Shown here: positions 9,552 to 52,634 of the stretch, one piece after another
Numbering within the stretch: position 1 is the stretch's first letter
How the letters are laid out: each line of letters begins with the position of its first letter
Assembly (NCBI RefSeq): GCF_001904725.1
Contig: NZ_MRCE01000044.1
Location: 1-56,875 of the forward strand
DNA: 56,875 nucleotides
Source of the DNA: Phormidium ambiguum IAM M-71
GTDB lineage: Bacteria > Cyanobacteriota > Cyanobacteriia > Cyanobacteriales > Aerosakkonemataceae
Direction of reading: 5' to 3'
Program-made: the position numbers and the translations under genes
Notes under the pieces: generated by a model
Databases searched by the model: none
What the model was told of the DNA's origin: nothing
Seen by the model: the letters and a program-made list of their open reading frames with translations, nothing else

Positions 9552-9688
9552 ACTTCTAAAGTTATCGGAAAACTTAAAATTCAATAGCTAAAATACCAAA
9601 ATGTTGAAAGTGAGCTTTTGACTGATATGTTTGCCTTCCTATTTGACTATACCTGAAAGTAACTCAAGTTTTTGTTCCAGGAGGCAGT

Positions 9689-14755: not shown

Positions 14756-14850
14756 ACAGAATTAACCATTTCCTATAAAATTTCTGAGTTTTTAGAAAAT
14801 TGCTGTATAATCCATCTCAGTATCACAGCAAAGTCGTTAAACAAAACAAC

Positions 14851-15177
14851 ATGGTACTAAAAACAGAATGGAAAGAAATTGGCTCGCGCGTTTCTCAACT
14901 CATTGCCAGAGCATGGCTAGAGGAGGAGTTTCAGGGAAGATTAATTGCTGACCCTAGAGCAACGTTGGAGGGGGAAGGTATAGAAATTCCTCCAGACGTA
15001 GCGGTGATTATTGACCAATCCATTGATAACTGGAGTATTGGTTTAGAAGGGGATAGTGTAGTTTGGCGGATACCTTTACCGCCAAAACCTACAGATTTTT
15101 CTGAAGAACAGCTATCAGCTTGGACCAGAGGTAACGTGACTCCAGAACTAACAGCAATGATGCCCAACTGCTGCTAA
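14851..15177 (+). CDS. TOMM/RiPP precursor peptide with nitrile-hydratase-like leader (NHLP)
   Basis: A 108-aa precursor of a thiazole/oxazole-modified peptide. The leader matches the nitrile hydratase alpha-subunit-like family: KEIGSRVSQLIARAWLEEEF, a RLIADPRATLE block, and VVWRIPLPPKPTDFSEEQLSAW at its end (given in parts). In this family the leader usually ends LSDEELEAVAGG. Here the matching stretch ends FSEEQLSAWTRG, so the deduced core is NVTPELTAMMPNCC (residues 95-108), with two terminal Cys as the obvious heterocyclisation sites and two Thr. An upstream TTG at 14800 is in frame, but family homology begins only after ATG 14851, which is preferred. The gene is followed 29 bp later by the oxidase and then by the cyclodehydratase and dehydrogenase. 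The core boundary is inferred by analogy because the Gly-Gly is replaced by Arg-Gly. Confidence 0.85.
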   Translation: MVLKTEWKEIGSRVSQLIARAWLEEEFQGRLIADPRATLEGEGIEIPPDVAVIIDQSIDNWSIGLEGDSVVWRIPLPPKPTDFSEEQLSAWTRGNVTPELTAMMPNCC

Positions 15178-15206
15178 ACATCGCCATTTTTAGTAGAGAA
15201 AAAACG

Positions 15207-19108: not shown

Positions 19109-19116
19109 TATATCAA

Positions 19117-27300: not shown

Positions 27301-29926
27301 TAAGAATTGGAAGTGCAGTATCTATCGCAGCTTGCATCTGATTTTGCGCTATGTAAAACTGAATTTGAGTCTCGTAAACAGGGACTTTCTCTAACAAAGT
27401 TTTTGCCCGTTCTAATACGACATCAGACAATTGCTTGGCCCGATCTAAGTTAATATTGAGATACTCCGCAGATGCCGTTTCTACAAATAAGTCTCGCGTC
27501 AATTCATACTTTCTTTCCCAGCTATCTGGGGGAAGTAATTGCAATCCCACATTTAAATACCTAGCAGCAGCATCATAAGCAGTAGCAGCTAAAGCTTTTC
27601 TTCCTGCCATCAAGTTTAATTTCGCCAGTTCTTCTTGCTCTGCTTCTTTGGTAATAAACTCTCTTCCTATGTTCAATTGATTAACAATATCAAATATGTT
27701 TTCTGCCAAAGCAAACTTAGCCGTTTTCTGTAACAGCAATCGACCGATTTTTAAATGAGTGACTTTTCTTTCCGATTCCGGTATCAGAGAATAAGCTGCT
27801 TGCTGTACTCGGTCATGTAAAAATTTATAGCTTACTCTTAAATCCTTATCTTGCAAATACCTTTGTTCTAATTCATCAACAAATAAGGGAATTTTGTAAT
27901 CTGATGAAAGAGGCAAAATCAACCCAGCTTGCAATGCTTCCCACAACTCATCAGCAGTAGTTAATAAAGATTGCTCATTCACCACTGCTAGATTATCTAA
28001 ATTAAACGTATTACCGATGCAAGCAGCTAACTTCAAAACCTCCTGCGTAGTCTCAGGTAATTTTTGAATATTTCTAGCTACCAATTCAACCACATTGTAA
28101 TCAGTAATACCGAGAGCTTGAATTTGCTCTAAATCCCACAACCAACGACCCTCGGTAAAATCAAACGTTAGCAACTTATCAGAGTACAAAGTAGACAGCA
28201 AAGTAGTCAAAAAGAAAGGATTTCCCTGAGTTTTGTTGAAAAGTAACTCAGCTAAAGGTCTTGTCCTTGCTAATTCGGTATTTTTCGCTTTCTTTAAATG
28301 TGAGGATGAGACTGTTTCAACTAAAGTATCATTCACTAAAGCCAAAATATTTTCCAAGCTCAAAGCTTCTAAAACAATATTATTAACAACTGCTCCAGTT
28401 TGTTGAATTTTTTCTATAGTTTGAATTGTGGCATGAGTTGGATTAACTTCATTGTCTCGATAAGCTCCGATCAGCAATAAAAACTGGCTTGCTGCATCAG
28501 TAATTATCAATTCAATTAACTTTAAAGAAGCCGAATCTGCCCATTGCAAGTCATCTAGAAATAGGACAAGCGGGTGTTCCTTTCGGGCAAATACACTTAT
28601 AAACTTTTGAAATACTCCAGTGAAACGATTTTGGGATTCTGTTGGCCCTAATTGTACTACTTCTGGTTGTTTGCCAATAATCCATTCTACTTCCGGAATT
28701 ACATCAATAATTACTTGTCCGTTTTGTCCTAATGCTTCTAATAATTTTAATTGCCAAACCGCTATCTTTTCTTGATTTTCTGTTAATAGCTGACGCATCA
28801 ATTCAGACAAAGCTTGAATCAAAGCAGAATAAGGTATATTCCGCTTAAATTGATCGAACTTACCCGATATAAAATAACCGCGTTGTCGTACAATGGGCTT
28901 ATGCACTTCGTTGACTACGGAAGTTTTGCCAATCCCGGAATAACCCGAAACTAGCATCATCTCAGTTGCACCAGCAGCAACGCGATTAAAAGTTTCTAAT
29001 AGTTCGGTAACTTCTTCTTCCCTGCCATATAGTTTTTGCGGAATCAAGAATTGGCCGGATTTATCCATCTCTCCGGGAACGAAGTTGAGAATTTCACCAC
29101 CCAAGACTAATTGATTAAAACAAGTTTCTATATCTGCTTTTAATCCCAAAGCGCTTTGATATCTATCCTCAGCATTTTTCGCCATTAACTTCATCACTAT
29201 CTCGGATATCGCTAGGGGAATCTCCGGGTTAACCTGATGAGGCGGTACAGGTGTTTTCGCTATGTGGCAGTGTACTAATTCCAGAGGGTCATTAGTTTTA
29301 AAAGGCAGTTCTCCCGTAAGTATTTCGTAAAAAGTAACGCCCAAGGAGTAGAAGTCAGTGCGATAATCAAGGGAGCGATTCATCCGCCCGGTTTGTTCCG
29401 GCGACATATAAATGAGCGTACCTTCTAGCAAGTCAGGATTGCTAATTGTAGGAGTTTCTCTGGATAAGCGAGATGCGATACTAAAGTCAATCAGTTTAAC
29501 GAGCCAGTTTTGAGGGGTTATCAGAATATTTTGGGGTTTAATATCTTTATGTATAATATGGTTTTGATGTAGTTCGTGGAGAGTTTCAGCTAACTGACGA
29601 GCAATCGATAAAAAAGCAAGTATAGATATTTTTTGGGTGCTAATTAATTTTTTGATGGAGCCTCCCTGAAAATCTTCTAATATCAGAGCTAAACCATTTT
29701 TATAATTTTCTAAACCAATTGCTTTGGGAATTCCTTGGATATTTAGTGAGAAAATAATTTTATATTCGTGCCGCAGTCGGGATATTTCTTCTAAGGTAGG
29801 GTACTCTGCTAGGAGAGTTTTGATGATTACTGATGTCTGTGAAGGTAGTTTAATGCCACGATATATAACTGTTTTAACCCCTTCATGAATAGCTTCGGTA
29901 AGTTGGTAACCTGGAAGTGTTAACAT
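24371..29926 (-). CDS. Giant Ser/Thr kinase-AAA-GAF-histidine kinase (HstK type)
   Basis: A 1851-aa dual kinase, the third paralogue in the window. It has a Ser/Thr kinase domain (about 5-270; IIHKDIKPQN, LIDFS), an AAA_16 NTPase with Walker A GYSGIGKT (about 325) and Walker B VLFLDDLQWAD, a long helical region, and GAF (about 1335-1500). A coiled coil (about 1505-1565) follows, then a HisKA domain with phospho-acceptor VASVAHEVNNPVSFINGN, and HATPase_c with N box NAIDAME, GPGM and GTGLGLSI. The architecture matches the cyanobacterial HstK family, which combines Ser/Thr and His kinase activity. No receiver domain or response regulator is adjacent. It is convergent with the P450 (45-bp gap). 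Confidence 0.93.
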   Translation of the reverse strand: MLTLPGYQLTEAIHEGVKTVIYRGIKLPSQTSVIIKTLLAEYPTLEEISRLRHEYKIIFSLNIQGIPKAIGLENYKNGLALILEDFQGGSIKKLISTQKISILAFLSIARQLAETLHELHQNHIIHKDIKPQNILITPQNWLVKLIDFSIASRLSRETPTISNPDLLEGTLIYMSPEQTGRMNRSLDYRTDFYSLGVTFYEILTGELPFKTNDPLELVHCHIAKTPVPPHQVNPEIPLAISEIVMKLMAKNAEDRYQSALGLKADIETCFNQLVLGGEILNFVPGEMDKSGQFLIPQKLYGREEEVTELLETFNRVAAGATEMMLVSGYSGIGKTSVVNEVHKPIVRQRGYFISGKFDQFKRNIPYSALIQALSELMRQLLTENQEKIAVWQLKLLEALGQNGQVIIDVIPEVEWIIGKQPEVVQLGPTESQNRFTGVFQKFISVFARKEHPLVLFLDDLQWADSASLKLIELIITDAASQFLLLIGAYRDNEVNPTHATIQTIEKIQQTGAVVNNIVLEALSLENILALVNDTLVETVSSSHLKKAKNTELARTRPLAELLFNKTQGNPFFLTTLLSTLYSDKLLTFDFTEGRWLWDLEQIQALGITDYNVVELVARNIQKLPETTQEVLKLAACIGNTFNLDNLAVVNEQSLLTTADELWEALQAGLILPLSSDYKIPLFVDELEQRYLQDKDLRVSYKFLHDRVQQAAYSLIPESERKVTHLKIGRLLLQKTAKFALAENIFDIVNQLNIGREFITKEAEQEELAKLNLMAGRKALAATAYDAAARYLNVGLQLLPPDSWERKYELTRDLFVETASAEYLNINLDRAKQLSDVVLERAKTLLEKVPVYETQIQFYIAQNQMQAAIDTALPILKMLGVSLPKNPSKLNILVGLIQTKIIFARKLIEELADLREMTDPYKLASMRILITVTPATFIAKPDLLPLVIFTLIKLSVNYGNSHLAAYAYGYYAFMLCGGLGDIDSGYRFGKLSLQVLSKFYAREIQPKVELLFNTGLKAWKEPFKETIKPLFEGIQTALEVGDLESACHNAMNYCSHLLIRGETLELVEQEQRKYTDVMLKLKQDFQLINTQIWFQFVLNLAGKSPDKYCLVGESFNERETLPLLIKNNNGISTFNVYFLKAWMLFLFKDYARSIEYARLAEKYLDKVSGMSAVTNHKLYYSLALLAHYSYVSKTDRKQYLFQVKLNQKALKKWAFHAPSNCQNKYELVEAEKSRILGQDVLAMKYYDRAIQGAKQQGFIQEEALANELASEFYFSRNREKVAQTYLTEAYYSYIRWGAKAKVQDLEQRYPGFFLKILKREDAGFNVTRTTTSTTGGSSSALDLVTVTKASQAISSEIVLDKLLSKLMQITIENVGASKGYLLLSKSGKLVLVAEGAVEKSKVRVLPSVPVESRPDLPLSIINYVERSQQTVVLNNATVEGLFTNDPYILKAQPKSIFCWPLTHKGKFTGILYLENNLSVGAFTPARLSVLKLLAAQAAISLENATLYEELQTYSQQLEAKNQELDNKNEALQKSEVQLKEKNEALEKYLHKLQQTQAQLVQTEKISSLGQLVASVAHEVNNPVSFINGNLHHASEYVQDLLNLLNLYQHHFPSPPAEIQAEIETMELEYIREDLPKMLSSMQVGTDKIREIMQSLRNFSRVDDGSARSVNIHDGLESTLMILQHRLKAKGELKAIRVVKEYGNLPKVECYNGQLNQVFMNILANAIDAMEKERVSNEKEIRIRTELENRPLIINEEESNYSSIPNYQFVIIRIKDNGPGMTEKVRTKLFNPFFTTKPICKGTGLGLSISYQIVVEKHGGKIECISAPGEGTEFVIMIPLRRETTKLLMQVNS

Positions 29927-32145: not shown

Positions 32146-32760
32146 ATGATTATTACAACCGCATCATTCAAAGGTGGAGTGGCGAAAACTACTACTGCGA
32201 TTCATTTAGCGGCTTACCTTCAAACCAAAGGACAAACCTTACTCATCGACGGCGACCCGAACCGTTCTGCTACTCGTTGGGCAGAGCGTGGCATTGCTAA
32301 CGCAAAACCATTACCTTTCAAAGTAGCTGGTGTCAACCAATCTGCTCGTTATAGCAAAGGATGCGAGCATTTCATCATCGACACGGAAGCAAGGGCAGAA
32401 GAAGACGACTTGAAGGAAATTATTGATGGCTGTGACCTACTGGTACTACCAACAACTGCCGATACCTTATCCCTCGATGCTTTAATTCAAACTGTAGAAT
32501 TGCTCAAATCTATGGGTACCAATAATTACAAAATTCTCTTGACCCGGATTTCTCCGCCTCCCAGACGAGAGGGTGAGGAAGCGAGGCAATTTATTAGCGA
32601 AGCTGGCTTTCCCTTATTCAAAAGCCAAATCAGAGAAGCAGTAGCATTTCAAAAAGCAGCAAATGATGGGATTTTGGTGCATCAAGTAAGCGATCGGCGT
32701 GCCAAAATAGCATGGAGTGATTATCAAGCAATTGGTAAGGAAATCTTCAGTGGCAAATAA
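32146..32760 (+). CDS. parA: ParA-type partition ATPase
   Basis: A 204-aa Walker-type ATPase for plasmid segregation. The deviant Walker A KGGVAKTT sits at residues 9-16, followed by LLIDGDPNRSATRWAERG (Walker A'-like) and IIDTEARAEEDDLKEII, with DLLVLPTTADTLSLDAL later. It is short, like the small ParA (type Ib-like) proteins, with no N-terminal DNA-binding extension. The end overlaps the parB GTG start by 11 bp, a typical par operon arrangement. It would act on the nucleoid with ParB bound at a centromere. Its presence suggests that this DNA is, or was, part of a plasmid or an integrated conjugative element. Confidence 0.92.
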   Translation: MIITTASFKGGVAKTTTAIHLAAYLQTKGQTLLIDGDPNRSATRWAERGIANAKPLPFKVAGVNQSARYSKGCEHFIIDTEARAEEDDLKEIIDGCDLLVLPTTADTLSLDALIQTVELLKSMGTNNYKILLTRISPPPRREGEEARQFISEAGFPLFKSQIREAVAFQKAANDGILVHQVSDRRAKIAWSDYQAIGKEIFSGK

Positions 32761-33712
32761 ACCAAATCGCTTTCACGGACTAATGCAAACCATACGGCAG
32801 GAGAGTTCCGCTCCACCTGATGAAACAGTGGAACAACTGCCAACAGCTAGCCATACTCCAACGGGCGTGGTATTAGTTCCCCTGGACAAAATTCACCCCG
32901 ACCCCGACCAGCCTCGCCGCTATTTTGATGAAGGAGAACTCAACAAAATGGCTGTATCAATGCGGGAAATTGGCGTAATTGACCCGCTCACCGTCCGCCC
33001 CAAACCAAATAGCAACGATTTGGAGTACGATTTGCTGGCAGGAGAGAAGCGTTGGCGGAGTGCGATGATGGCCGGATTGCAAGTGGTGCCAGTCCGCATT
33101 TTTGATGTGGACGATCGCACTGCTCTTGATATCAAGGCGATTAGTAACCTCCAGCGTTCTGACTTAAATGCTTGGGAGGAAACTCAAGCCATCATGGGAA
33201 TGCTGATGCGGAACTTGGAAAAGTCACAAGAGGAAGTCGTTAGCCTACTCAACCAAGCTGCCAATCAGAAACGTGGACTTACGGATAACGTTGTCCGTAA
33301 GTCGGATTGGGAGATAGTCGAGGATGTTTTCAACTTAGTGGGAAGGCTAACGCCAGAGAGTTTTCGCAAGCATCGAGTGCCATTACTGAAACTCCCCCAA
33401 TCGATCGAGTCAGTATTGCGTCAGGGAAAATTGCAATACACCAAGGTAAATGAAATTCTCAAACTTAAGTCAGTCGAGCAGCAGGAAGCACTTTTAGATG
33501 AAGTAATGGCAGCTAACTTATCGGTAGAAGAAATTCGTCAGCGAGTCAGAGAACTACGCCCTAGCAAGACAGCAAAGGAGCAGTCGCCCAATTTATCGGG
33601 GCGATTGACAAGTGTTACTCGTGCTATCAAACAAGCTAAGATTTGGCACGATCCGAAGAAGCAAAAAAGGCTAGAGAAATTGCTTGGTGAATTGGAAAAT
33701 TTGCTGCAATAA
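32750..33712 (+). CDS. parB: ParB-type partition protein
   Basis: A 320-aa centromere-binding protein. The ParB/Srx N-terminal domain contains IHPDPDQPRRYFDEGELNKMA, LLAGEKRWRSAMMAGL (the CTP-binding GERRxRA-type patch) and ISNLQRSDLNAWEETQAI. An HTH-like middle and a C-terminal coiled region with Arg/Lys follow. The frame is open from 32717, but GTG 32750 has AAGGAAA 6-7 nt upstream and is the likely start, overlapping parA's stop. A tandem parAB pair with an inverted repeat upstream implies self-contained partition. The parS site itself is not identified. Confidence 0.9.
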   Translation: MANKPNRFHGLMQTIRQESSAPPDETVEQLPTASHTPTGVVLVPLDKIHPDPDQPRRYFDEGELNKMAVSMREIGVIDPLTVRPKPNSNDLEYDLLAGEKRWRSAMMAGLQVVPVRIFDVDDRTALDIKAISNLQRSDLNAWEETQAIMGMLMRNLEKSQEEVVSLLNQAANQKRGLTDNVVRKSDWEIVEDVFNLVGRLTPESFRKHRVPLLKLPQSIESVLRQGKLQYTKVNEILKLKSVEQQEALLDEVMAANLSVEEIRQRVRELRPSKTAKEQSPNLSGRLTSVTRAIKQAKIWHDPKKQKRLEKLLGELENLLQ

Positions 33713-40718: not shown

Positions 40719-41585
40719 TTATTCTTTTTCTCCTAACGTAATGCCACCCGGCATTTGAAACAGTCCGGCTTGCGTAGAAGAAGCAGTACCAGCCGCCGCA
40801 TCTTGTCTTCGCTGAGTTACATTTAGTTCGCTAAGTTCTTTAGCTTGTTGGGCGCTTAAAGTATTGGCAAGGGCGCGATCGATCTGCGCTTGTTGGTTCT
40901 GAAGTACAATCACGCCTTGATTCTGCGCCGTTAGTGCGGTTTGTTGAGAAATGTTACGCATGATGTGTTGCGTCACATCTTGGTTTTGTGATTCTTCACC
41001 CAGTTGAATATTTTTACTAACATTTTGGTCAACCATTTGTGCCATTTGAGCTTGCCTATCCTGAGCAGCTTTACTGAGAGTGGCATCTGAAGCGGTTGAA
41101 GTTGCTGTTTGCTGTTGGGCAAGGTTAGCTAAATCTGATTGAATGCTATAAGAACCTTGCGGTTTATTCTCTAAAGTTGCAGATAGTTTAGTACCTTCAT
41201 TATCGGTGAAGTTACCACTCATTATTTTAGCTACAACTTCTTGTAAATCTGGAATTTCGAGGGAACCTACGAATGATTGCAGCATTTGGTCGAGTTGCGT
41301 CGTAATTTTAGCGATCGCACCCGATACTTTATCAATTGGATTCTTAACTTGACCTAAAAACTCTTGAGAATCTTTTTGAATTTGTTGCTCGATTTGTTGG
41401 GTTTGGGAAGGAGGAACTGTAAAGCTGTCAGGATTCAGATTATTCAAACTAGAATTAGGAACCGTAGTTGTAGTGTTGGACTTATCAGAACTTTGAGCTT
41501 GTGCTTCAACAGAATTTAACATTAATGCCAATACCATTACTGGAATGGTGAGAACAAGTTTCATCAAAATTGTTTGGTTACTCAT
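40719..41585 (-). CDS. VirB5/TrbJ-like secreted protein
   Basis: A 288-aa protein with a clear signal peptide (LMKLVLTIPVMVLALMLNS...AQA, cleavage near residue 31), a Ser/Thr/Asn linker and a long helical region rich in Gln, Ala and Ser (about 65-260; QTQQIEQQIQKDSQEFL and QAQMAQMVDQNVSKNIQ). Size, signal peptide, all-helical character and position after the VirB4-like ATPase match VirB5/TrbJ pilus-tip proteins. Sequence identity in this family is always low, so the assignment is tentative. AGGGGA precedes the ATG. It is intact, unlike the neighbouring VirB6- and VirB10-like genes. Confidence 0.5.
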   Translation of the reverse strand: MSNQTILMKLVLTIPVMVLALMLNSVEAQAQSSDKSNTTTTVPNSSLNNLNPDSFTVPPSQTQQIEQQIQKDSQEFLGQVKNPIDKVSGAIAKITTQLDQMLQSFVGSLEIPDLQEVVAKIMSGNFTDNEGTKLSATLENKPQGSYSIQSDLANLAQQQTATSTASDATLSKAAQDRQAQMAQMVDQNVSKNIQLGEESQNQDVTQHIMRNISQQTALTAQNQGVIVLQNQQAQIDRALANTLSAQQAKELSELNVTQRRQDAAAGTASSTQAGLFQMPGGITLGEKE

Positions 41586-41629: not shown

Positions 41630-44600
41630 TTAACTAGCTATCAGAGTAGGATGTTGTTTGTGCTGAATATTGCTAATAGAATTCTTGCCAATATTGGCAA
41701 GAGAATGTCCTTCTTTAATGGCTTGTACGTATTCAGAAGTAAACTGTTTGAGTGCTAATAATCGCCCTTTTAAGGTATCGGGATATTGAGCCATAACTCT
41801 AGCGCGAGCCATCAATTCTGTTTGATTATTTGCTACGCTCGCTAATACCATTTCGCCTGGATAAAATTGGGTTTGCCAAAAGCGCCCGCCTTTTTCAATC
41901 AGCCAATTTGAGCAGAGTTCAGTGGCTTTTGGAAGAAACGCTTCGGTAGCATTTTGAGCGATAATTTCTGATGGGTATCCCAAACGCTTAACCCAAGAAT
42001 TAACGGCATTAGATGTTAATCTCCCGGTAATGCGGTAAACCATGTTTTGCAGAATCATCGTTCCCGCGCTGCAATCGCAGATGCTATCGATATCTTGAGA
42101 AAGTAGCAACACCGAAATGCCATTTTTTCGTCCAACTGCACAAAGTTCGCCTACTACTTCAGCAAAGCCATCTTTTTTGAACAAAATCGAAAGTTCGTCT
42201 CCAATAAATAAACTTTTCGGGTGTGAAAGGGCATTGCGAATACAAGCAGCATGGGCGTTCATTGCCATTAAATATTGGTCTTGTTCGTTGCTCAAACCAC
42301 TTAACGCGAAAAACTTAATTGCAGGTGCGGGGGAAAAGGTAGAAGGTCTAGCGATCGCTTTTCCTAAAGGTGAAGCAAGTAAGGCATTACATTGAGTAAT
42401 AATCTGATTGATGGCAATGCGATCGAGGTCAGTAAAGTTTTGTAAATTTAATTGTTCCTTAGTGCAGAATTTGAGCAAATCTTTGAGGGTTGGTATTTCT
42501 TGCCATTCATTTGATTTCCAACCTTTTTCAAAAGCAGCATTGTAGCGTTCGATTATTTCTGGGTCTTCGAGAAACTTTTTCAAAGTCAGCAGCAGAATAG
42601 CATCAACTCGTTGTGCTAATTTAGGGTCATTTACCTTTCCCATGCTGATAATAGTCAGGGATTTTCTGATAAACTCTTTCCACTGGTCTAAACGTCGAGA
42701 GCGTTCTTGTTTATCAAAGCGTCGCAGGTCGGGGATTTCGAGTAAATTAGAGCTACCTTTGGTAATGTCGTAGTACGCACCGTCATCGCCTAAAAGTGCG
42801 ATCGCAGTTTCAAATGTGCTACCAGAACCGCTAGAAATATCCATGCCAACAACTGGAATGTTAGCAGCTAAAGCATCAAGAGCAAATCGCCATCCCAAAA
42901 CTGATTTACCGCTACCGCTTTCCCCAGTGATGACAGCACGGCTAGTTTGTTCGTGCATGAGGTCAACGCAGACGGGCTTACCGCCTTTAGTAATGAATTC
43001 GACACCAATTGGATCGATATCTCTCACCGCAGTTAAAGGTAAAACACCTGCAACGGTTTCTGTATCAAAAGTAAGGCGACGTTCGTTAATTAGGGAACTG
43101 CTGTGCAACAGCCAACCGAGCGTAATTGGTAAAGTTTCTAACCAAACTAACCAAGCAATATTTCGCTCTCTAATTACTTTGGCAGAACCGAAACTATTGG
43201 TTAACATTTGACAAGCTTGGTTGAGTTGTTCTGGGGTTGGTCGATAGACTAAAAAAACAACTGCGGCGTGCAATGCTTTTGCACCTTTGTACATTTTTTT
43301 CTGAGCATCAAAAGATTCTTCCTGCTTAACTTCAGCACCCACATCTCGCCCTTGCCCTTTTTCCAAAGCAAGTTTTCTAGCTGTTTTAGATTGTTTGGCT
43401 TGACGAGCTAAATTGTCTTGAATAAAAAAGTTAGAAGCTGCACTAATTTCCACAACTGCTTCGGTATCGTGAACGTAAGTAGAACTCATCACTTTCCACA
43501 ACCATTTCAATTGTTCTCTGGTATTAATCCAACCACCGGGACTTTCTTCCATTGTCAGCACGCCGCATTCCGTATTTCTGCCATTGAGCCAGATGCGCGA
43601 TTTATCTTGTTTGTGTTCTGGACAACTGGAACGACCGTGTTGACCTTCAATTAAAATGGTGCAAGCGTGTTTGTAGCTGTTGATAGTTTCCGTTAGTTTG
43701 TAGTCGGATGCAGTTTCTGACAAAGTGAGTAATTGCGGAATAGGCGATGCTGGTGTATTGTTGAATTTTTTCCACAAGTATGACCACAATTGTTCGGCAT
43801 TCAATGGTTGAATTTCTAACCCTATTTTGGTATTAAGTAAAATTTCCCAACTTAAGTAGCCTTGCTCGAAAGATTGCAGTAGTAATTGCTTGTAAAAGCG
43901 TTCTTTGTAAATCCGATCGTTTCCCGTAAACTGGGAAGCGATACTGCTAGCTGTATTTAAAATTCCATTGATGAATTTGCTCAAAGGGTCGTTAGATTTG
44001 GAACCAGATTGAGCATTAAATGTCCAAGTACAAAAAATTGTTTGATTCCACACCTGTCTGGTGCCAGTTAGCGTTAGTTCTTGCACGCGCTTTTGTTCGT
44101 TTCTGATTAACAGTGAAATTGGTTTGAGATGACAAGTTTCAACTTGTTCGTTTAGTTGCTGCTGTCGAATACTGTCATTGCTATAGCAACTTGTATGGAA
44201 TACTAACTTCTCACCTGAAGGGATATCTTTTAATCCTTCCTCTAAAGCACTAGCTGCGTTACTAACTTCTTGACGATATAGCAAATTATGCAACCCTTGA
44301 GTCTGGAAACCAAATACAACTTGGTACTGACTGCCTTCATTAAGCAAGTAACCCGATACTTCGCGGTTATCTTTTTTGATAGTCACTAGACACAGAAGAT
44401 TTTGATAATTTTGAAATGGCATAAGTCTGCTATTACCTCCTTGTTGATTCGGCGCAAGTTTTGGTTTGAGTTTGATGCGAACTTGCGAATCTTTAAAGCG
44501 AGTGCGAAGGGCAGGCGGTCGTTTTTCTGGTACGGGTGGTAAGTATGATAAATTGCCGTTGTACCATTCGCTACCTGGTGGAAATCTGAACTTATCTACA

Positions 44601-44830
44601 AACAGGTGAGGTTTCTTTCCTGTCAAAAACCACCAACTAATAATTAGCCAAAAGGTAGTAGTGAAAAACCAAGGCATTCCTAAGCTAAAAAAGCCGTTGG
44701 TAAATATGTATGAAACAATAACAATAGCCATCCAAGGAACGAGTTGTTCGGCTGGAATAAAGCCTATAGATGCTTGTTTTCCAAGGATTTTATTGACAGT
44801 CACAAAGTCTTTATCTGGGTCTTTGAGCAT
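41630..44830 (-). CDS. virB4-like: VirB4/TraC-like secretion ATPase with N-terminal membrane region
   Basis: A 1066-aa motor ATPase of type IV secretion. Residues about 28-70 form two membrane segments (AIVIVSYIFTNGFF and FTTTFWLIISWWFLTGKKP), resembling a VirB3 fused to VirB4. The central part matches the VirB4 N-domain in size. The C-terminal half holds the RecA-like motor with Walker A TGESGSGKSVLGW (about 636-648), MDISSGSG, and Walker B SLFIGDELSILF (about 877), followed by ISVLLLSQDI. It would energise pilus assembly or DNA transfer together with the VirB5-, 6-, 9- and 10-like products. No VirD4 coupling protein, relaxase or VirB11 is visible in the window. Confidence 0.88.
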   Translation of the reverse strand: MLKDPDKDFVTVNKILGKQASIGFIPAEQLVPWMAIVIVSYIFTNGFFSLGMPWFFTTTFWLIISWWFLTGKKPHLFVDKFRFPPGSEWYNGNLSYLPPVPEKRPPALRTRFKDSQVRIKLKPKLAPNQQGGNSRLMPFQNYQNLLCLVTIKKDNREVSGYLLNEGSQYQVVFGFQTQGLHNLLYRQEVSNAASALEEGLKDIPSGEKLVFHTSCYSNDSIRQQQLNEQVETCHLKPISLLIRNEQKRVQELTLTGTRQVWNQTIFCTWTFNAQSGSKSNDPLSKFINGILNTASSIASQFTGNDRIYKERFYKQLLLQSFEQGYLSWEILLNTKIGLEIQPLNAEQLWSYLWKKFNNTPASPIPQLLTLSETASDYKLTETINSYKHACTILIEGQHGRSSCPEHKQDKSRIWLNGRNTECGVLTMEESPGGWINTREQLKWLWKVMSSTYVHDTEAVVEISAASNFFIQDNLARQAKQSKTARKLALEKGQGRDVGAEVKQEESFDAQKKMYKGAKALHAAVVFLVYRPTPEQLNQACQMLTNSFGSAKVIRERNIAWLVWLETLPITLGWLLHSSSLINERRLTFDTETVAGVLPLTAVRDIDPIGVEFITKGGKPVCVDLMHEQTSRAVITGESGSGKSVLGWRFALDALAANIPVVGMDISSGSGSTFETAIALLGDDGAYYDITKGSSNLLEIPDLRRFDKQERSRRLDQWKEFIRKSLTIISMGKVNDPKLAQRVDAILLLTLKKFLEDPEIIERYNAAFEKGWKSNEWQEIPTLKDLLKFCTKEQLNLQNFTDLDRIAINQIITQCNALLASPLGKAIARPSTFSPAPAIKFFALSGLSNEQDQYLMAMNAHAACIRNALSHPKSLFIGDELSILFKKDGFAEVVGELCAVGRKNGISVLLLSQDIDSICDCSAGTMILQNMVYRITGRLTSNAVNSWVKRLGYPSEIIAQNATEAFLPKATELCSNWLIEKGGRFWQTQFYPGEMVLASVANNQTELMARARVMAQYPDTLKGRLLALKQFTSEYVQAIKEGHSLANIGKNSISNIQHKQHPTLIAS

Positions 44831-45011: not shown

Positions 45012-45623
45012 CTAGCCTCCAGCAACACCGCTACCATTACCAACGAACAAGAAAGTGACCACATCAATAGCAATTACAATTGCAAAAGCTAGTGCTACTT
45101 GGGTTACAATCGGTCTCCAATCATTGCCTTGTTGTGCTTGGTTATAAGCAAATAATGAAGCAGCAGCTACTAGCAAAAGAAAAGCGCCACGAATTAAGTT
45201 GAAAATCAAGGTAATTACTTCAGCAGAAATTGCTTGACCCCCAGCCGAAGCTGCGCCTTGTGCTAGTTGTTGCATAAATGCTTCTAAGCCTGATAAAAAG
45301 ATGGCATTAGCTGGAGAATCAAGTACAGAACATAGTGCAGTGGAGGTAATGATAGCGGTAGTGACGTGCCAGAATCGGATTTTACCACCGATATATCTTT
45401 CTACAATTGGAATAGCTCTGGCGATATGCCATAAGCTCAGAAATAAAATACTAGAGCAGCCTAGCGTTGTAATAAAAAGAGGTTGACGGATGGTAAAGTA
45501 AATTAGTGCTGCTATGCAAATAGCAATAAATACAAAATCGCCAGGGATGATTTTGTGTTGAATTAGCCAACGATTGAACAACAGTTTCTTACGGTGGTTT
45601 TTCGGAGTTTGGTAAACCGTCAT
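45012..45623 (-). CDS. Membrane protein with VirB2/pilin-like C-terminus
   Basis: A 203-aa protein. The frame is open from 45668, but ATG 45623 is preceded by GGAGA at 8 nt and is the probable start. There are two membrane segments at about 25-70 (FVFIAICIAALIYFTI; LGCSSILFLSLWHIARAI), a third near 85-105, and a C-terminal pair (NLIRGAFLLLVAAASLFAY; VTQVALAFAIVIAIDVVTFLFVG) separated by a short polar loop. This C-terminal pair is typical of VirB2/TrbC pilins, here on a longer protein. It lies directly upstream of the VirB4-like gene in the operon. A hairpin palindrome lies about 105 bp upstream (45719-45737). Confidence 0.55.
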   Translation of the reverse strand: MTVYQTPKNHRKKLLFNRWLIQHKIIPGDFVFIAICIAALIYFTIRQPLFITTLGCSSILFLSLWHIARAIPIVERYIGGKIRFWHVTTAIITSTALCSVLDSPANAIFLSGLEAFMQQLAQGAASAGGQAISAEVITLIFNLIRGAFLLLVAAASLFAYNQAQQGNDWRPIVTQVALAFAIVIAIDVVTFLFVGNGSGVAGG

Positions 45624-45718
45624 GGGAGTTTCTCCATTTATATGCTTTGATGCCAATTTAAGAGGCAATTGGTATTCGTAACTTCACCAGATACGGTAAA
45701 TTTAGATAGTTAGCATAA

Positions 45719-45737
45719 CCCCCTCTATTTGGAGGGG
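45719..45737. promoter_or_regulatory. Palindromic upstream element 1 (imperfect)
   Basis: Plus-strand CCCCCTCTATTTGGAGGGG: arms CCCCTC/GAGGGG around TATTTG. Its centre is about 105 bp upstream of the pilin-like ATG (45623). It is the imperfect member of a set with 48025-48042 and 51652-51667. Confidence 0.6.
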
Positions 45738-45803: not shown

Positions 45804-47930
45804 TTATGCTTCCATTTCTAGTTCGGTTTTTTGCTCTTTATGTTGGTGAGGAGTCATAATTTGTTGCTTTTGAGAGAGGAGATATTTTACATCATCAATA
45901 GGGATATCACACTGAAGTACTTCGACTTTACCTCTAGCGATAGTTGCGTCAAAAACTACCTCATCGTATTGATTAAAACCTTGGATAGAAGCCGAAGACT
46001 TGGACTTGTCACTAAACTCAACTTCAAAGTCGAAGCGACGACCTTGCGAATTGGTAAAATTCATTTGTGTTAGACCGCTTTTCCCTAACACTTCAGCTAA
46101 TGTTTCTTGATGAATTGTTCGTTGCAAAAGGTCTAAGTCAGCGATTTCTTGTTTGTCTTCTTTGCTGAGGAAATCATTTATTACTTTCCACTGACCCTGC
46201 GAACAAGATGCTGAGAATAACTCTTCACCCCGTTGATTTTCTAATCTTACAGATGTTGAATTGTGTTGGTGAGTCTGATAAAGTTTGGAACTTCCTAATT
46301 CAACTCCATCTTCTAAAGTTTCACCTGCTGCAACTGCTTCTTCTTCAACTAGGTTATAAAGTTGTGCTAATAAGGGAGCAATTTGTGATGATTGAGTTTC
46401 AATTGAAGGTGACTTAGCCGCTTTTTTACCATTCGTATTGTCCATGTTTGCCAGCTTTAATGGAGAGGGTTTACTGTTGTTTGAATTTAAATCATTGTCA
46501 GGTTCAACCACTGATTCATTTATTTTGGTTTCAGTAAGAAAAAGTTTTTGTTCTAAAGCTTCAAGTCGTACTTCTAGAGTATCGAGACGCTTTTCTAGTC
46601 GGTCAAGAGCCTGATTAATTTGTGCAAGCTGTTTGTCAAAGCTAGCCTTGGTGTCAATGTTAATGGTTGCAGATTTTTCGGAAGTATCTGATTCTAATGC
46701 GATTGAAGTTTTATCAATTTTGTCGTTAATTTTGTTAACAGCTTCAGCCAAGATAACCCCTGCGTCTGGTACAGATTCTACCTTGTCTTTAGAGTTCGAT
46801 TCCTCCATTATCATGGGTGAGTCTGTTGGGGTTTCTGATTCATCTGATTCTTCTTGAGTCAAGGTTTTGACTCTTGTTGTGAGGGAATCAGCGCGTTGAC
46901 TTTGAGCTTTAAGTCTTTTAATAATATTGCTAACTTGACGTTCTCTTCCTGTTGCTTTAGCTGCTTCTAAAACTTGTGAAGCTGCCTTTTTGCCAATCAG
47001 AGTAGTAAGGACTGCAATTTGAGTGCTAAGTCCTCCAAGAGTAGTACCATCTACTTCACTTCCAGAAGTTGCTGCTCTGCTGCTAACCTGGGAGGTGGCA
47101 TCGAGTATATTATCGATATCTAAGTTGTTTGATGATTGGCGCTGATTGTTGGTTGGAGATTGGCTTTCATCAAGTAGCGGGTTCCGAACTGATTTCCTGT
47201 TATCCTTAGAACTGTCAGATATTTCATCTGATTCTACAGCGTCTTTTTGAGGTTGATTTTTAGCTTTAGACTGAGGTTTTGTTTGAGGCTCATTTTCATC
47301 TAATTCGTCTAATAAGTCATCTAGCTCATCTGTTCGAGATTGGTTCTTACTTTTAGATTTAGTTTGATGTTCTTCTAAAGCTAATTCATCTGAATCATTA
47401 CTCTTAGCTTTCCGCTGGTTTTGGGTTTTAGTAAACAGCTCATTTTCGTCTAATCCTGGGATGTCACTATGGTACGTCTTACTATTGAGCTTTGATTTAG
47501 ACAATACTTGAGGTTCATCGTCATCTAAATCATTTAACAAATCATCTTGCTGTGATTTACGATAGCTTTTCTGCGGATTAAGAATCGCTTCAACTCCTGT
47601 TTTAGTGAATCGGTTATCATCTGATTCACCTAAGTGTTCCATCATGTATTTGCCTGTTGTAGACCCATACTCAGGTCGGTCAGCCAAGCTAAGAATAATT
47701 CCGTTGTGCTTGATTTCTACATTAATGCTCGGTTTGCCGTCAGCTTCAGTTAGTTCCTCAACTGTATCAGCAAAATCTTCTACGCTTTTTAGTCCGTTTT
47801 CCAAGCAATAATCCAAAGCTTTTTCACAGCGATTTCTCAGGTATTTTAAAATCTTTGCACCTTCAGGTGTGTGGGGAGTAATATAATTGCCTTGGTTTCG
47901 GTTTCGATTTGATACTGTCTTTGTAGCCAT
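45804..47930 (-). CDS. 708-aa plasmid protein, coiled and low-complexity, partner of the polymerase-like gene
   Basis: I do not recognise a named family. The N-terminal roughly 130 residues are globular (EGAKILKYLRNRCEKALDYC; a beta-rich PSINVEIKHNGIILSLADRP). Residues 130-330 are a disordered, Asp/Gln/Ser/Lys-rich region with near-repeated blocks (DDLLDELDENEPQ, DLLNDLDDDEPQ). About 430-470 is a coiled coil (LAQINQALDRLEKRLDTLEVR). The C-terminal 200 residues seem to hold two copies of a small beta domain (SVRLENQRGEELFSASCSQG and NQYDEVVFDATIARGKVEVL in parts). A similar unit ends the polymerase-like protein upstream (CWVKDENDAPVFAADLKTG). It lies 158 bp from that gene and has the same palindrome in its leader, suggesting that the two products work together. 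Confidence 0.6.
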   Translation of the reverse strand: MATKTVSNRNRNQGNYITPHTPEGAKILKYLRNRCEKALDYCLENGLKSVEDFADTVEELTEADGKPSINVEIKHNGIILSLADRPEYGSTTGKYMMEHLGESDDNRFTKTGVEAILNPQKSYRKSQQDDLLNDLDDDEPQVLSKSKLNSKTYHSDIPGLDENELFTKTQNQRKAKSNDSDELALEEHQTKSKSKNQSRTDELDDLLDELDENEPQTKPQSKAKNQPQKDAVESDEISDSSKDNRKSVRNPLLDESQSPTNNQRQSSNNLDIDNILDATSQVSSRAATSGSEVDGTTLGGLSTQIAVLTTLIGKKAASQVLEAAKATGRERQVSNIIKRLKAQSQRADSLTTRVKTLTQEESDESETPTDSPMIMEESNSKDKVESVPDAGVILAEAVNKINDKIDKTSIALESDTSEKSATINIDTKASFDKQLAQINQALDRLEKRLDTLEVRLEALEQKLFLTETKINESVVEPDNDLNSNNSKPSPLKLANMDNTNGKKAAKSPSIETQSSQIAPLLAQLYNLVEEEAVAAGETLEDGVELGSSKLYQTHQHNSTSVRLENQRGEELFSASCSQGQWKVINDFLSKEDKQEIADLDLLQRTIHQETLAEVLGKSGLTQMNFTNSQGRRFDFEVEFSDKSKSSASIQGFNQYDEVVFDATIARGKVEVLQCDIPIDDVKYLLSQKQQIMTPHQHKEQKTELEMEA

Positions 47931-48024
47931 AACTCAATGAAGTTGAAGTGGATATTTTCTATGAAATTTGAGAGTTCGCTTAGTGACTTCACCAAATCAG
48001 TTAGTTTCTAACCATAAAATTAAC

Positions 48025-48042
48025 CCCCTCCAATTGGAGGGG
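48025..48042. promoter_or_regulatory. Palindromic upstream element 2
   Basis: Perfect 18-bp palindrome CCCCTCCAATTGGAGGGG. Its centre is about 104 bp upstream of the 708-aa protein's ATG (47930). On the minus strand it is followed by GTTAATTTTA, so weak terminator activity for the polymerase-like gene is also possible. Confidence 0.75.
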
Positions 48043-48087: not shown

Positions 48088-51000
48088 TTAAACTTGTACC
48101 TCTGCCATTTCTTTTTTTTCTTGTTCGGGAGTAATGTCAAAAACTTGTGCGAGCAATTTATCACAGTTCGTTGAAGAAAGCTCCTTAATAATTGTGCCAG
48201 TTTTCAAATCAGCAGCAAAGACGGGAGCATCGTTTTCATCCTTAACCCAACATCTAAGGTTGTTACGAACTTGCTTAATTTTAACGTTCCAATCCCCCAT
48301 TGCGAACTCAGTTTCTCCCGTTTGTTTGTAAAGTCCATAGATTGCATCCTTAAGTAATTGCGAAAATTCAACAGAATCTACTTTGCCAGTTTCATTTTGA
48401 ACTTGGTGATTATGTTGCTTTTGTTGATGGTTTTGCTCTTTCCTACCAATTAATTCATCTTCAAACTGTGGTTCAACTGTCTGAATTAATCGCACAGTTT
48501 TTGGATCAATATTCAGAAGTAGGCTACTACCTTTTGATGAAGGTTCGATAGTTGCTTCAAAGGTAGCACCAATTGGTAGTTTAGGCGAATTAGCAGAAAA
48601 CATAGCTAATTGTTTCCCATCAAGAAGCACAATCGGACTACCGTTGTACCTCAAATCAGAACTGTTAAACGAACCGACTTCAAAAGTTAATTTTCGACCA
48701 ATCCATTCTCGACTACTAAAATCAACATCTTTGAAATCGTTATGTTTCTGTCCGATTAATTCGGCTTTGTTAAATTGAAAATTTTGCAATTGCTGACAGA
48801 TTTCATCAGTAAATAAGTTAAGTACTAGCGCCGCTTTAGGTGTTTGATGCTGAGATTCCAGCCAGGTATATTCGGTAGGGGCTACAATCCGCGAACTAAT
48901 ATCTTGACTGCGACCCAAGCCATCGTGATAGGTTAAATCTAAGTTGTCGATGTCATTGGTATTGTTACTGTACCGTTTTTCCAAAATGTCGATTAGCTTA
49001 TCGCTGGGGTCGAGTAAAGCAAAGTTGACCATCGGTAAGTTGGGATGCAATGTCGCTTCGTATTCAATGTTTTTGCTATCTAGCCTCTCTTTCCACTGTT
49101 TAGCTAAATCTCGACCTATTGGTTTTCGTTGCTTGTCCGTGACAATTTTACCTCTGTCATCTTTGACAAATTCCTCAAAGGGAACGCTCAGAATATAGGT
49201 ATCTTTGGGTAGTGCTGAGTGCAATTGTTGATAATCAGATTCCAAATGAAATTCAATCTCAAGCTGGCGAGAAAGTTCTTTACCAGCTTTACGTGGAACA
49301 TCTAAATTAGGATTAGTAGTTTCTAAGTACCACATCGCACTGGCTGCTAAAAAGCGTTCTTGAGAATTGGGAAAAGCTTCTGCCACATCGCTTCTCAAAC
49401 TTTCATACAATTTGCTAACCGCCTCTTTTAAATTAGTAGGATTCTCCCCGTGTAATTCATAGATTTCGCCCATCCTTTCTCGATAACGTTCCTTCACTTC
49501 TTGCGCCCAACTGATGTAATGTTTTTCCCAAGTTTCTCGTTCGTCTAAATCTGATGGTGGGCTGAAAAGGTAACGAAATTCATCACGATGGCGGCTTTTG
49601 AGACGAGTCGGTTCCCAAGCTGGATTGACAGCAACTTTTGCGATCGCGCTAATTGCTGTACCATCTTCTGTAGGTAGCGGTACGCTTTTGTAAAGTCTGA
49701 GGTCGTCTTTGAAATCGAACAGGTGGCAAGGATGTTGTTGAGACCACTTGGAAGCTGTTTCTAGTAAATTAGGGTGGTGGTCTTCTAACCTAGTAGCACT
49801 TTTGGGGCTATCGACTTCAATTTGAAGTGCGTCGAATAACTTACCCAGCAATTTTTCTTTTCGTTGGTTGAATAAACCTTCTGGTTGTCCAGCTTCTGGT
49901 GCAGAAGATTGTACTCGTCCAATTAAAGTGGCTACCCAGCCGATTTTGTTTTTAGCGATCGCTACAGCAATCTGTCTCAGTTTGGTATACTTACGATTAC
50001 CATCTTCATCAGTAGCTTGAGTGTAATCAATTTTCGGGCGTTTTTCGATAGCTTCGTATTGATTTTCATCATTAGCATGAAGGGTTTCTTTGGCAATGTG
50101 AGGTAGTCTGGAAGCAGGTGTAATTACCAATTGGTCGCCATCAAAATCGCATTGGTGATGCTGCATGGCTTGGTCGGGACGAATGAAAACACAGCCTTTG
50201 TATTGCATGAGTTCGGGTTTCTGTTTGTTGTTAACTGTGTAGCGACGAATATTGTCTTTACTAACAATTGGGTAGCGAGTAACGATTACTTCCGTTCCAT
50301 GTCGTAAATGAGGTGCAACAATTGTTCCAGGTAACAAATCTTCACCAGGTTGAGCCATTGCCGAACCATGATGAATTGCTCCTTTAATAGCTAAATCTTT
50401 CCATTTCTTGGCAAGTTGTTCCTGCATGAAGTCAACAACTTTGGGAAAGTCAAGTAGCTGTCCTAATTTATCGTTTCTAAGAATAGAGATAAGGCGAGAT
50501 TCGTGACGTTTGGTTTGCTCATCACCTAAATCATTCAATTGAGTTTCCGTGTCATCTGCTGTTTGTCTGAAAGCTGCTTTCTTGTCATGCTGTTCGACTA
50601 GGTATTTAGCAAGTTGTATGCGGTTATTTTGCAAAGATGCTAGTTTTTGAGCTTCAACTTTAGTAGCAGGAACGATGTCAGCTTGAATTGCATTTTCCGA
50701 GTACCAAATCGAAAACTGCCAAGAATTTTCATACTCGGTTGTTTTGGCATTCCCGCGATTTCCTAATACAGCTTGAGGAAATTCGTAATCACCACAAGGA
50801 ATTAAGTCAGCTAGTTGTTTTTTATCAACTCCTTTGATGGAAGAGCGGTCTAGAATGATATCATAGCCAGCATTATCGGTTAATTGAGCATTAGGTAGCA
50901 AAGTTCCTTTCGCTAAAAAGCTAATTTCTGGAGTTTGGCAATCTTCCCGTGACCACTCTTTTAACCATGCCATGCGAAATTGGAAAGGTCGGTTGTGAAT

Positions 51001-51567
51001 TGCTCCTAATTGTTCAGCTAAAGCGGGTGAAATTTTACCATGACAGTCGCCAGTTTGCCACTTTTTAGCTAATGCTTTTTCCTTGGGGTTATCGCTTTGG
51101 GAGTCAACAATTTTTACTTTCAAGGTTTGACCATCTTCCGAACTATCTAAAAATTGCGCTCCTTGTATACAACTGCTGACTAAAAGTGAACCGTAACGAC
51201 AGGCGTGGTCGGGTTGAGTGGCAAAGATACTTAATAGTTTAGCTGAAAGTTCTTTGTCAGCGAAGTACACATTTTTACCAGAACTGAAAGTAGCCCTTCT
51301 AGGAATATCATCGCCAAAATCAATATTTTTGAGAGGGTCATAACTGTTATCATCGGGGTCGGGTTTAACAATTACTAACGATGTTAGCTCAGATGGTTCA
51401 AATAGCAGTTCAAGCATTGAGTTTCTCAACACTTCCGGTTCAGCTTGATAGCGACCTTTCGTTTTATTATCGGTCAGTGACATATCAAATACAGGGATTT
51501 TAAGGCCCTCTCCCTTAGCTAATTCAGTAGAGTGATAAGTTGGAGTAGAAAACGCTATTTTTTTCAT
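48088..51567 (-). CDS. Two-barrel RNA polymerase-like protein (DFDGD catalytic motif)
   Basis: A 1159-aa protein with the hallmarks of the double-psi beta-barrel polymerase superfamily (RNAP beta', QDE-1-type RdRP, YonO). QCDFDGDQLVI at residues 472-482 places three Asp (474, 476, 478) exactly as in the beta' NADFDGDQM metal site. Before it, GTEVIVTRYPIVSKDNIRRY and CVFIRPDQAM (about 424-468) parallel the beta' RAPTLHR...LHPLVC stretch. Earlier, GDCHGKISPALAEQLG (173-188) plus PFQFRMAWLKEW parallel the DGxGxIS...FQIR motif of cellular RdRPs. After the catalytic site, LFDALQIEVDSPKS resembles their LHSIAVDFPKTG. It is a single chain without recognisable sigma contacts. Candidate roles are plasmid-specific transcription, primer synthesis or copying of transferred strands. 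It is upstream of the 708-aa gene and has a palindrome 93 bp before its ATG. Confidence 0.8.
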   Translation of the reverse strand: MKKIAFSTPTYHSTELAKGEGLKIPVFDMSLTDNKTKGRYQAEPEVLRNSMLELLFEPSELTSLVIVKPDPDDNSYDPLKNIDFGDDIPRRATFSSGKNVYFADKELSAKLLSIFATQPDHACRYGSLLVSSCIQGAQFLDSSEDGQTLKVKIVDSQSDNPKEKALAKKWQTGDCHGKISPALAEQLGAIHNRPFQFRMAWLKEWSREDCQTPEISFLAKGTLLPNAQLTDNAGYDIILDRSSIKGVDKKQLADLIPCGDYEFPQAVLGNRGNAKTTEYENSWQFSIWYSENAIQADIVPATKVEAQKLASLQNNRIQLAKYLVEQHDKKAAFRQTADDTETQLNDLGDEQTKRHESRLISILRNDKLGQLLDFPKVVDFMQEQLAKKWKDLAIKGAIHHGSAMAQPGEDLLPGTIVAPHLRHGTEVIVTRYPIVSKDNIRRYTVNNKQKPELMQYKGCVFIRPDQAMQHHQCDFDGDQLVITPASRLPHIAKETLHANDENQYEAIEKRPKIDYTQATDEDGNRKYTKLRQIAVAIAKNKIGWVATLIGRVQSSAPEAGQPEGLFNQRKEKLLGKLFDALQIEVDSPKSATRLEDHHPNLLETASKWSQQHPCHLFDFKDDLRLYKSVPLPTEDGTAISAIAKVAVNPAWEPTRLKSRHRDEFRYLFSPPSDLDERETWEKHYISWAQEVKERYRERMGEIYELHGENPTNLKEAVSKLYESLRSDVAEAFPNSQERFLAASAMWYLETTNPNLDVPRKAGKELSRQLEIEFHLESDYQQLHSALPKDTYILSVPFEEFVKDDRGKIVTDKQRKPIGRDLAKQWKERLDSKNIEYEATLHPNLPMVNFALLDPSDKLIDILEKRYSNNTNDIDNLDLTYHDGLGRSQDISSRIVAPTEYTWLESQHQTPKAALVLNLFTDEICQQLQNFQFNKAELIGQKHNDFKDVDFSSREWIGRKLTFEVGSFNSSDLRYNGSPIVLLDGKQLAMFSANSPKLPIGATFEATIEPSSKGSSLLLNIDPKTVRLIQTVEPQFEDELIGRKEQNHQQKQHNHQVQNETGKVDSVEFSQLLKDAIYGLYKQTGETEFAMGDWNVKIKQVRNNLRCWVKDENDAPVFAADLKTGTIIKELSSTNCDKLLAQVFDITPEQEKKEMAEVQV

Positions 51568-51651: not shown

Positions 51652-51667
51652 CCCTCCAATTGGAGGG
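51652..51667. promoter_or_regulatory. Palindromic upstream element 3
   Basis: Perfect 16-bp palindrome CCCTCCAATTGGAGGG, with one further G on the right. Its centre is about 93 bp upstream of the polymerase-like gene's ATG (51567) and 84 bp upstream of the divergent small gene at 51744. It is flanked by a T run on the left and an A run on the right, the wrong order for an intrinsic terminator. Confidence 0.75.
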
Positions 51668-51995: not shown

Positions 51996-52634
51996 TCAAT
52001 CAGCTTTTTTACGTCGCTTTTTGGTAGGTTGCGGCTGATTTCCTAATGGTTCAACATCGACTATTGTGCTAGCTTGGTATTGAGGTAAATTGCTTGGTAG
52101 TAAGCTATAAATTACTTTACGCCTACGATAAACTTTTGTACCTTCTACAGGTATTCCTTGTTTCCAAGCATCAGTAATTGCCTTTTTATCAGCCGAAATT
52201 ATGGTTTTAGTTTCGACACGACGATATTGATCTGGGAGTTGAGAAGGGTCGATAGATATTTCACAAGTCGGTGGGTTTTCTTTGAGAGTAATTCGATGCT
52301 GTTTACCAACAATTTCAGCTGTAATGGCTCCAATCTGATTAAAATAAATAACAGTTTGGTCTAATCGCTCTCGCCATCCTTCCAATTTATCGATCGCACT
52401 TTGATGCAATTGGACTAAAAATTCCATTCTTGCTTTAATTGCTATAATTTCGGCATCAATTTGGTTGGCAAGTTCGGCATGAGCATCAATGGCAATTTTT
52501 TGTTTTTCTTGATTGTGCCAAATTGATTGGAATAAGCGATCGATTTCTTCATTTGTTTCGGCAATTTCTAATTGATGCCAAAGTTGGGCTGCCGTAATTG
52601 ATGTATGAGCTAAAGATTGAGTGGCTAAGTTCAT
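51996..52634 (-). CDS. Siphovirus Gp157-like protein
   Basis: A 212-aa protein. The N-terminal two-thirds are helical/coiled (EIAETNEEIDRLFQSIWHNQ; a region rich in Glu/Lys/Gln to about residue 115). The C-terminal part carries the Gp157-family signature: ENPPTCEISIDPSQLPDQYRR, then KAITDAWKQGIPVEGTKVYRR, matching the conserved NPP..EI....LP..YRR and ADKKAI...G..VPGA pattern. Gp157 proteins occur in phages and plasmids beside single-strand recombination genes. The founding member was reported in connection with phage resistance in streptococci. The ATG overlaps the stop of a 57-aa upstream gene (TGATG). The tail is very basic (PTKKRRKKAD). Confidence 0.8.
   Translation of the reverse strand: MNLATQSLAHTSITAAQLWHQLEIAETNEEIDRLFQSIWHNQEKQKIAIDAHAELANQIDAEIIAIKARMEFLVQLHQSAIDKLEGWRERLDQTVIYFNQIGAITAEIVGKQHRITLKENPPTCEISIDPSQLPDQYRRVETKTIISADKKAITDAWKQGIPVEGTKVYRRRKVIYSLLPSNLPQYQASTIVDVEPLGNQPQPTKKRRKKAD

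Follow-up and report, generated by a model that had tools for sequence, protein, structure and literature searches.

We report that the 1159-amino acid protein encoded at positions 48088-51567 (minus strand, counted from its ATG) of a 56,875-nt stretch of cyanobacterial DNA, hereafter the window, is almost certainly a single-chain two-barrel RNA polymerase by fold class, and that its family is conserved in physical linkage with conjugative transfer genes in the main clade. The plus strand across the same interval is closed by many stops. The window is contig C44 of the Phormidium ambiguum IAM M-71 genome (7.41 Mb, 90 contigs), and appears to be plasmid DNA, because of its own genes and because named plasmids have the same gene order. 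An initial annotation had proposed an active, plasmid-dedicated polymerase; fold, conservation and gene order support this in part, whereas RNA synthesis and the identity of the targets are matters that we infer.

The assignment to the two-barrel superfamily, which is described in PMC7824862 and PMC7598289 (in the portions available), is based on structure and on profile comparisons. As the initial annotation had anticipated, an AlphaFold2 model of the protein matches two-barrel (double-psi beta-barrel) RNA polymerases, and the top Foldseek matches are QDE-1 and RDR2, with alignments over 900 columns; the VIA rows end at about residue 931, before a C-terminal region that spans about 931-1159. 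In PHROGs, the protein matches phrog_34895 (function unknown; 1.8e-22), phrog_4291 ('RNA-dependent RNA polymerase'; 2.1e-7, residues 411-520) and, at E 0.0072, phrog_8308, which is the family of YonO itself. Comparison by hhalign of a 43-sequence family alignment (A2) gave E 1.3e-9 and a score of 92.4 against the phage phrog_4291 group (control maximum 32.3), and E 5.8e-4, a score of 44.9 and a probability of 29% against the YonO group (control maximum 34.1). None of the 40 controls, consisting of 39 column shuffles and one reversal, reached the real score for either group. Pfam and NCBIfam models gave no match to the protein at E<=1, and neither phmmer nor a profile search found QDE-1, an RDR or any other polymerase among Protein Data Bank (PDB) chain sequences at E<=10. 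The sole hit of the profile search there was Rop (E 0.31), which we take as chance.

The putative catalytic residues are conserved throughout. Residues D474, F475, D476, G477 and D478, which contain the predicted metal-binding Asp triad of the beta'-like barrel (codons at 50134..50148, minus strand), are invariant both in a 14-sequence alignment and in the 43-sequence alignment, so that the loss of the Asp residues in homologues, which would have spoken against the original proposal, is not seen. Two back-translated search patterns were used, of which one included the first D and the F of this stretch and the other neither; the sampling of homologues is therefore slightly biased in favor of the triad. 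The invariant columns of A2 include, besides D474, D476, G477 and D478, the residues K220, G221, T222, S242, S243, K245, G246 and K512. A wider alignment of 26 rows was made up of the window protein and 25 more distant or partial cyanobacterial homologues, among them giant forms, here cut at 1300, that measure 1614-2272 aa wherever a long frame could be read. K220, K245, K512 and G543 are identical in 26/26 of its rows; the Asp residues were left out of this count because they were the selection criterion. From motif order, K220 (FLAKGTLLP, codon 50908..50910, minus strand) and K245 (DRSSIKG, codon 50833..50835, minus strand) are the candidate catalytic pair of the second, beta-like barrel. 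Position 431, the R of the TRYP motif, does not vary within the close family but holds R, T or C in the wider set.

All the motif positions first noted hold (CDFDGDQ at 473-479, GDCHGKIS at 173-180, VIVTRYPIV at 427-435 and CVFIRP at 459-464), and LFDALQIEVDSPKS corresponds to residues 577-590. As a diagnostic set, these motifs fared unevenly, since only D.DGD is clearly common to other families and the remainder of those listed are internal to this one. GDCHGKIS, FQFR, CVFIRP and LFDALQ...SPKS are conserved within the family of the window protein, but were not seen by eye in the consensus sequences of the phrog_4291 phage group (81 proteins) and the YonO group (61 proteins). What the three groups do share by eye is the order of a KG motif, a second Lys, RYP/RSP, D.DGD and IG/MG..(S/A). 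In the window family and the phage and YonO groups, the KG motif reads LAKGTLLP, YLKGMAMY and WVKGLLVP, and the second Lys lies in SSIKG, NTNK and TKSQFK, respectively.

Linkage to transfer genes is the second main observation. The polymerase gene was located through DFDGD in 76 of 78 genome loci, 63 of them in the main clade and 13 in a subclade (L098-L110), and downstream genes were counted in the 46 main-clade loci having at least 3 kb of downstream DNA. A frequent order, all on the polymerase strand, is polymerase, 708-aa-like protein, 218-aa-like protein, VirB4/TraC-like ATPase and 288-aa-like protein. The 708-aa family is found downstream on the same strand in 33/46 loci, in 22 of them as the next same-strand open reading frame (ORF); the 218-aa family follows in 29/46 and the ATPase in 23/46. 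In the window, these genes are all on the minus strand. The 708-aa coiled-coil protein (45804..47930; cluster 1, 36 loci including the window) is the first conserved gene downstream; 37/37 members of its family lie on the polymerase strand, and it matched no family above its curated cut-off in Pfam and NCBIfam scans. A domain common to its C-terminus and that of the polymerase was suspected by eye, and is unsupported by hhalign (E 0.17). Next come the 218-aa protein (45012..45668, with the inner ATG at 45623 as probable start; cluster 2, 31 loci including the window), the 1066-aa VirB4/TraC-like conjugation ATPase (41630..44830; cluster 3, 25 loci including the window), whose label here rests on a weak model score far under the curated cut-off (TIGR02746, E 7.2e-8), and the 288-aa protein (40719..41585; cluster 10, 14 loci including the window). 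Upstream of the polymerase is a Gp157/Mu Gam-like protein (51996..52634, minus strand; PF05565, E 2.6e-11; phrog_253, E 3.5e-11), whose family (cluster 5) occupies this side in 20 loci including the window. Representatives of other families that lie upstream in 15-22 loci scan as PRTRC ThiF, B and A types, all of them under the NCBIfam curated cut-offs.

The same organization recurs elsewhere. A second polymerase copy in the P. ambiguum genome, on contig C17, follows Gp157 and PRTRC-like genes and is itself followed by 708-like, 218-like, ATPase and 288-like genes, in that sequence. Three polymerase-bearing plasmid records were inspected (pOSC7112.02, pANACY.01 and p057_B), and 3/3 are typed as conjugative, MOBP and MPF_T, with downstream genes that match those of the window in size and order; TrbI/VirB10 is found downstream in two.

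The family is distributed across cyanobacteria, with homologues in 37 of 386 sampled cyanobacterial genomes, P. ambiguum included. The nearest named relatives are in Phormidium sp. LEGE 05292 (94%) and Argonema antarcticum (96% across residues 1-681). The 78 loci derive from the best 80 of 98 confirmed stretches in a scan of genome contigs, and 78/78 of those retained bear cyanobacterial titles. Matches occur in 81 plasmid records, with at least 80% of the query covered in 13, and the annotation is hypothetical protein in every one of the 40 plasmid-record matches listed. When viral contigs were scanned with the 14-sequence alignment, 62 stretches matched the patterns and none of them encodes a relative; weak tblastn matches exist among phage records, and some phages may carry the family. 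There are also giant homologues, including a third homologue in P. ambiguum (1609 aa; G000:C20:49149-53975, minus strand) and similar proteins of 1614-2272 aa in other cyanobacteria (L273-L277), which have the KG motif, the second Lys motif and D.DGD, one of them on a 5.7-Mb contig. In L009, L010 and L011, an extra stretch near residue 208 breaks the search match of the polymerase homologue in two; the long L071 was grouped with these for similar length only.

How would such an enzyme function? We propose, with an even chance of being right overall, that it is a DNA-dependent RNA polymerase dedicated to the conjugative plasmid and serving its transfer genes. D474, D476 and D478 of the beta'-like barrel would bind metals, K220 and K245 of the beta-like barrel would contact substrate, and the enzyme, with its own C-terminal extension, would transcribe the plasmid transfer operons in much the way that YonO acts on the late genes of SPbeta. 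That the protein is active and synthesizes RNA is very probable, and its natural template is likely to be DNA; that the transfer genes are its targets could well be so, with slightly less than an even chance. Transcription would start from a plasmid-specific promoter.

A candidate for this promoter is a 55-nt module consisting of a hairpin (CCTCC-N5-GAGGGGG), 31 nt and GTGAAGT. Copy 1 (47986..48040, minus strand) ends 55 nt before the start codon of the 708-aa gene, and 57 nt separate the end of copy 2 (45681..45735, minus strand) from the ATG at which the 218-aa gene probably starts. A third site, on contig C32, is 59 nt before a 72-aa ORF; past it on the same strand, in a cluster interrupted by one opposite-strand ORF, are 702-aa and 232-aa ORFs and a TrwB/VirD4-type coupling protein (PF10412, 1.6e-29). 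C32, which seems to belong to the same plasmid as the window, additionally encodes PolA, a sliding clamp and a clamp loader. When the pattern is loosened (gap 25-45), 3 sites appear in the 7.41-Mb genome, all of the same total length, against 0 for the backward control; a hairpin with all five G is confined to these three sites. The hairpin with three G has one further site in the window, CCTCCAATTGGAGG at 51652..51667 (strand unassigned), which lies upstream of the polymerase gene and is not followed by GTGAAGT. Six loci from close relatives also carry the element (L033, L035, L036, L066, L067 and L288). Across the phylum it was found in 1 of 194 genomes, that of P. ambiguum itself, in a draw that is poor in close relatives; the nearer genome G336, whose polymerase is 76% identical, lay outside the draw. 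No sigma-70-like site was found by scan on the same strand between the element and either gene start, which is weak evidence; the scan is no richer in sites than shuffles are (17 versus 15.0). It is somewhat doubtful that the element is the promoter of the window polymerase, although as a candidate it can be tested directly. A bolder version, which we consider improbable, is that the polymerase starts at hairpin-type promoters on supercoiled or freshly transferred single-stranded DNA, so that expression of the transfer genes would not depend on the host enzyme, perhaps in the recipient as soon as the DNA has entered.

Several observations weigh against the main proposal. For the top 20 Foldseek rows, the TM score by query is low (0.26-0.38) and the rmsd high (9-14), and because QDE-1 and RDR2 are RNA-silencing enzymes, the fold matches leave the template unsettled. 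With regard to linkage, no member of the 708-aa family was seen in the DNA available for 13/46 main-clade loci, and the distance from polymerase to operon varies from 29 nt to 7.4 kb and is often several kb, so that polymerase and transfer genes are not always one operon. The L098-L110 subclade lacks these downstream genes (0/7 loci with at least 6 kb), and some of its members are on contigs titled as chromosomes. Mobility typing of the 81 plasmid records gave 31 conjugative, 15 mobilizable and 35 non-mobilizable, the last outnumbering the first.

The 55-nt element is open to other readings as well. Its hairpin also passes a terminator-like scan, and the whole could serve as an operator, as a regulator site or as a terminator-promoter pair of the ordinary kind. 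In addition, a second clade (the L049-L089 group) has a different block of ~100 nt before the same 708-aa-like gene, with two GCCA repeats 23 nt apart. This block is strongly conserved in 16/16 aligned loci, and the regions upstream of the next two genes are by eye less so. Its core occurs without mismatch at 8 places in 7/15 genomes searched and, allowing <=2 mismatches, in 11/15, 4 of them at 2 mismatches only (backward control 1). In two genomes (L308 and L310), a core with 1 mismatch precedes a gene that is ParA-like by eye; this raises a regulator site as an alternative, and a DNA-binding regulator fits at least as well. The block of this Nostoc clade has a weak consensus fold (-3.6 kcal/mol), and a structured RNA is unsupported. 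In two further groups (L044/L045/L046/L064/L070 and L074/L075/L077/L096), no clear conserved block was seen by eye before the same gene, with the exception of two near-identical members.

There are other possible roles for the protein. It might be a primase-like RNA polymerase, supplying the primers with which the plasmid is replicated or with which transferred single strands are made double-stranded. QDE-1-type enzymes are able to start without a primer, and the Gp157/Gam-like protein nearby, the replication genes of C32 and nine loci having a gene from a cluster in which the one protein scanned is a DNA polymerase of PolA type are all compatible with such a role. The commonest linkage, however, is with secretion-type genes downstream rather than with replication genes, and the relative YonO is a processive transcriptase (PMC5467207, in the portion available), so that we regard a primase as possible but unlikely. 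Less likely still is an RNA-templated polymerase like QDE-1 and RDR2, perhaps for counter-defence or RNA amplification. Those two enzymes are the closest by fold, and both PHROGs and sequence records label the phage relatives as RNA-dependent RNA polymerase; but such record names are annotation, YonO is DNA-dependent (same source and portion), QDE-1 structures have been solved with DNA templates too (according to structure titles), and no RNA-silencing protein was seen among the scanned neighbor families.

It is also conceivable that the protein is catalytically dead or repurposed, for example as a structural or regulatory nucleic-acid-binding protein. This we hold to be very unlikely, as the triad and both Lys residues are invariant in 43 sequences and the Lys residues persist in 26/26 rows that reach into deep subfamilies. 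Finally, the motifs might have arisen by chance in a protein unrelated to polymerases, as the lack of matches in Pfam, NCBIfam and PDB sequences at the thresholds given above might suggest. The length of the fold alignments, the phrog_4291 match, the profile controls and the invariance of the triad reduce this to a negligible probability, and we reject it unless the predicted model is wrong.

How does the protein relate to known enzymes? QDE-1 (Neurospora/Thielavia) and plant RDR2 are eukaryotic RNA-silencing polymerases to which it is 11-14% identical, with no sequence-level match to the PDB chains; in contrast to them, it is bacterial, lies beside conjugation-type genes and has the extra C-terminal region. 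It resembles YonO of the Bacillus phage SPbeta in being a single chain and, by eye, in the order of KG, second Lys, D.DGD and IG..(S/A), but YonO has 839 aa, is found in a phage late-gene setting and shows only the weak profile similarity given above. Similarity around the Asp triad is clear for the phrog_4291 family (including Lactococcus phage 1706 orf75 and, from Arthrobacter phage Gordon, gp88). Its members are phage-carried, and in the three that were scanned, helix-turn-helix families match close to both termini, whereas the plasmid protein matches no helix-turn-helix family in PHROGs at E<=1. The RNA polymerases of phages P32 (gp64), P74 (gp62) and P23-45 (gp96) differ in having solved chains of about 590-710 residues and in not being plasmid-borne.

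Most descriptions of single-chain two-barrel RNA polymerases outside eukaryotic silencing concern phages and linear fungal plasmids (PMC7281927), and the available portions of that paper, PMC5512222 and PMC12645912 do not mention the window family. YonO-like proteins are already in print for the main genomes of many cyanobacteria (PMC5467207), and RNA polymerase homologues in likely mobile elements of some cyanobacterial genomes (PMC7598289); these probably belong to the same broad group as the window family, and are presented, in the parts of both papers available, without mention of conjugative plasmids, secretion genes or a candidate promoter. In the full-text literature searched, which has most subscription journals outside it, neither a link of such a polymerase to cyanobacterial conjugative plasmids nor the 55-nt element was found among the titles and passages listed. 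If true, the proposal would add a host-independent layer of transcription to plasmid transfer, and it would provide bacterial relatives of gene-silencing polymerases that would be useful for work on polymerase origin.

The remainder of the window has several other features. Two ORFs at 32146-33712 (plus strand) resemble plasmid ParA and ParB by eye, and a group II intron-type reverse transcriptase with maturase and HNH domains is found at the contig end (132-1319, plus strand). An apparent gene cluster for a ribosomal peptide natural product occupies 14800-20538 (plus strand), where a peptide precursor (weak match, NHase-alpha/Frankia type), an amine oxidoreductase, a YcaO cyclodehydratase and a ThcOx-type oxidase adjoin each other. 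The regions 3768-14755 (plus strand) and 24371-29926 (minus strand) encode three giant protein kinase-AAA-GAF proteins (1688-1927 aa) with C-terminal cyclase, GGDEF or histidine-kinase domains.

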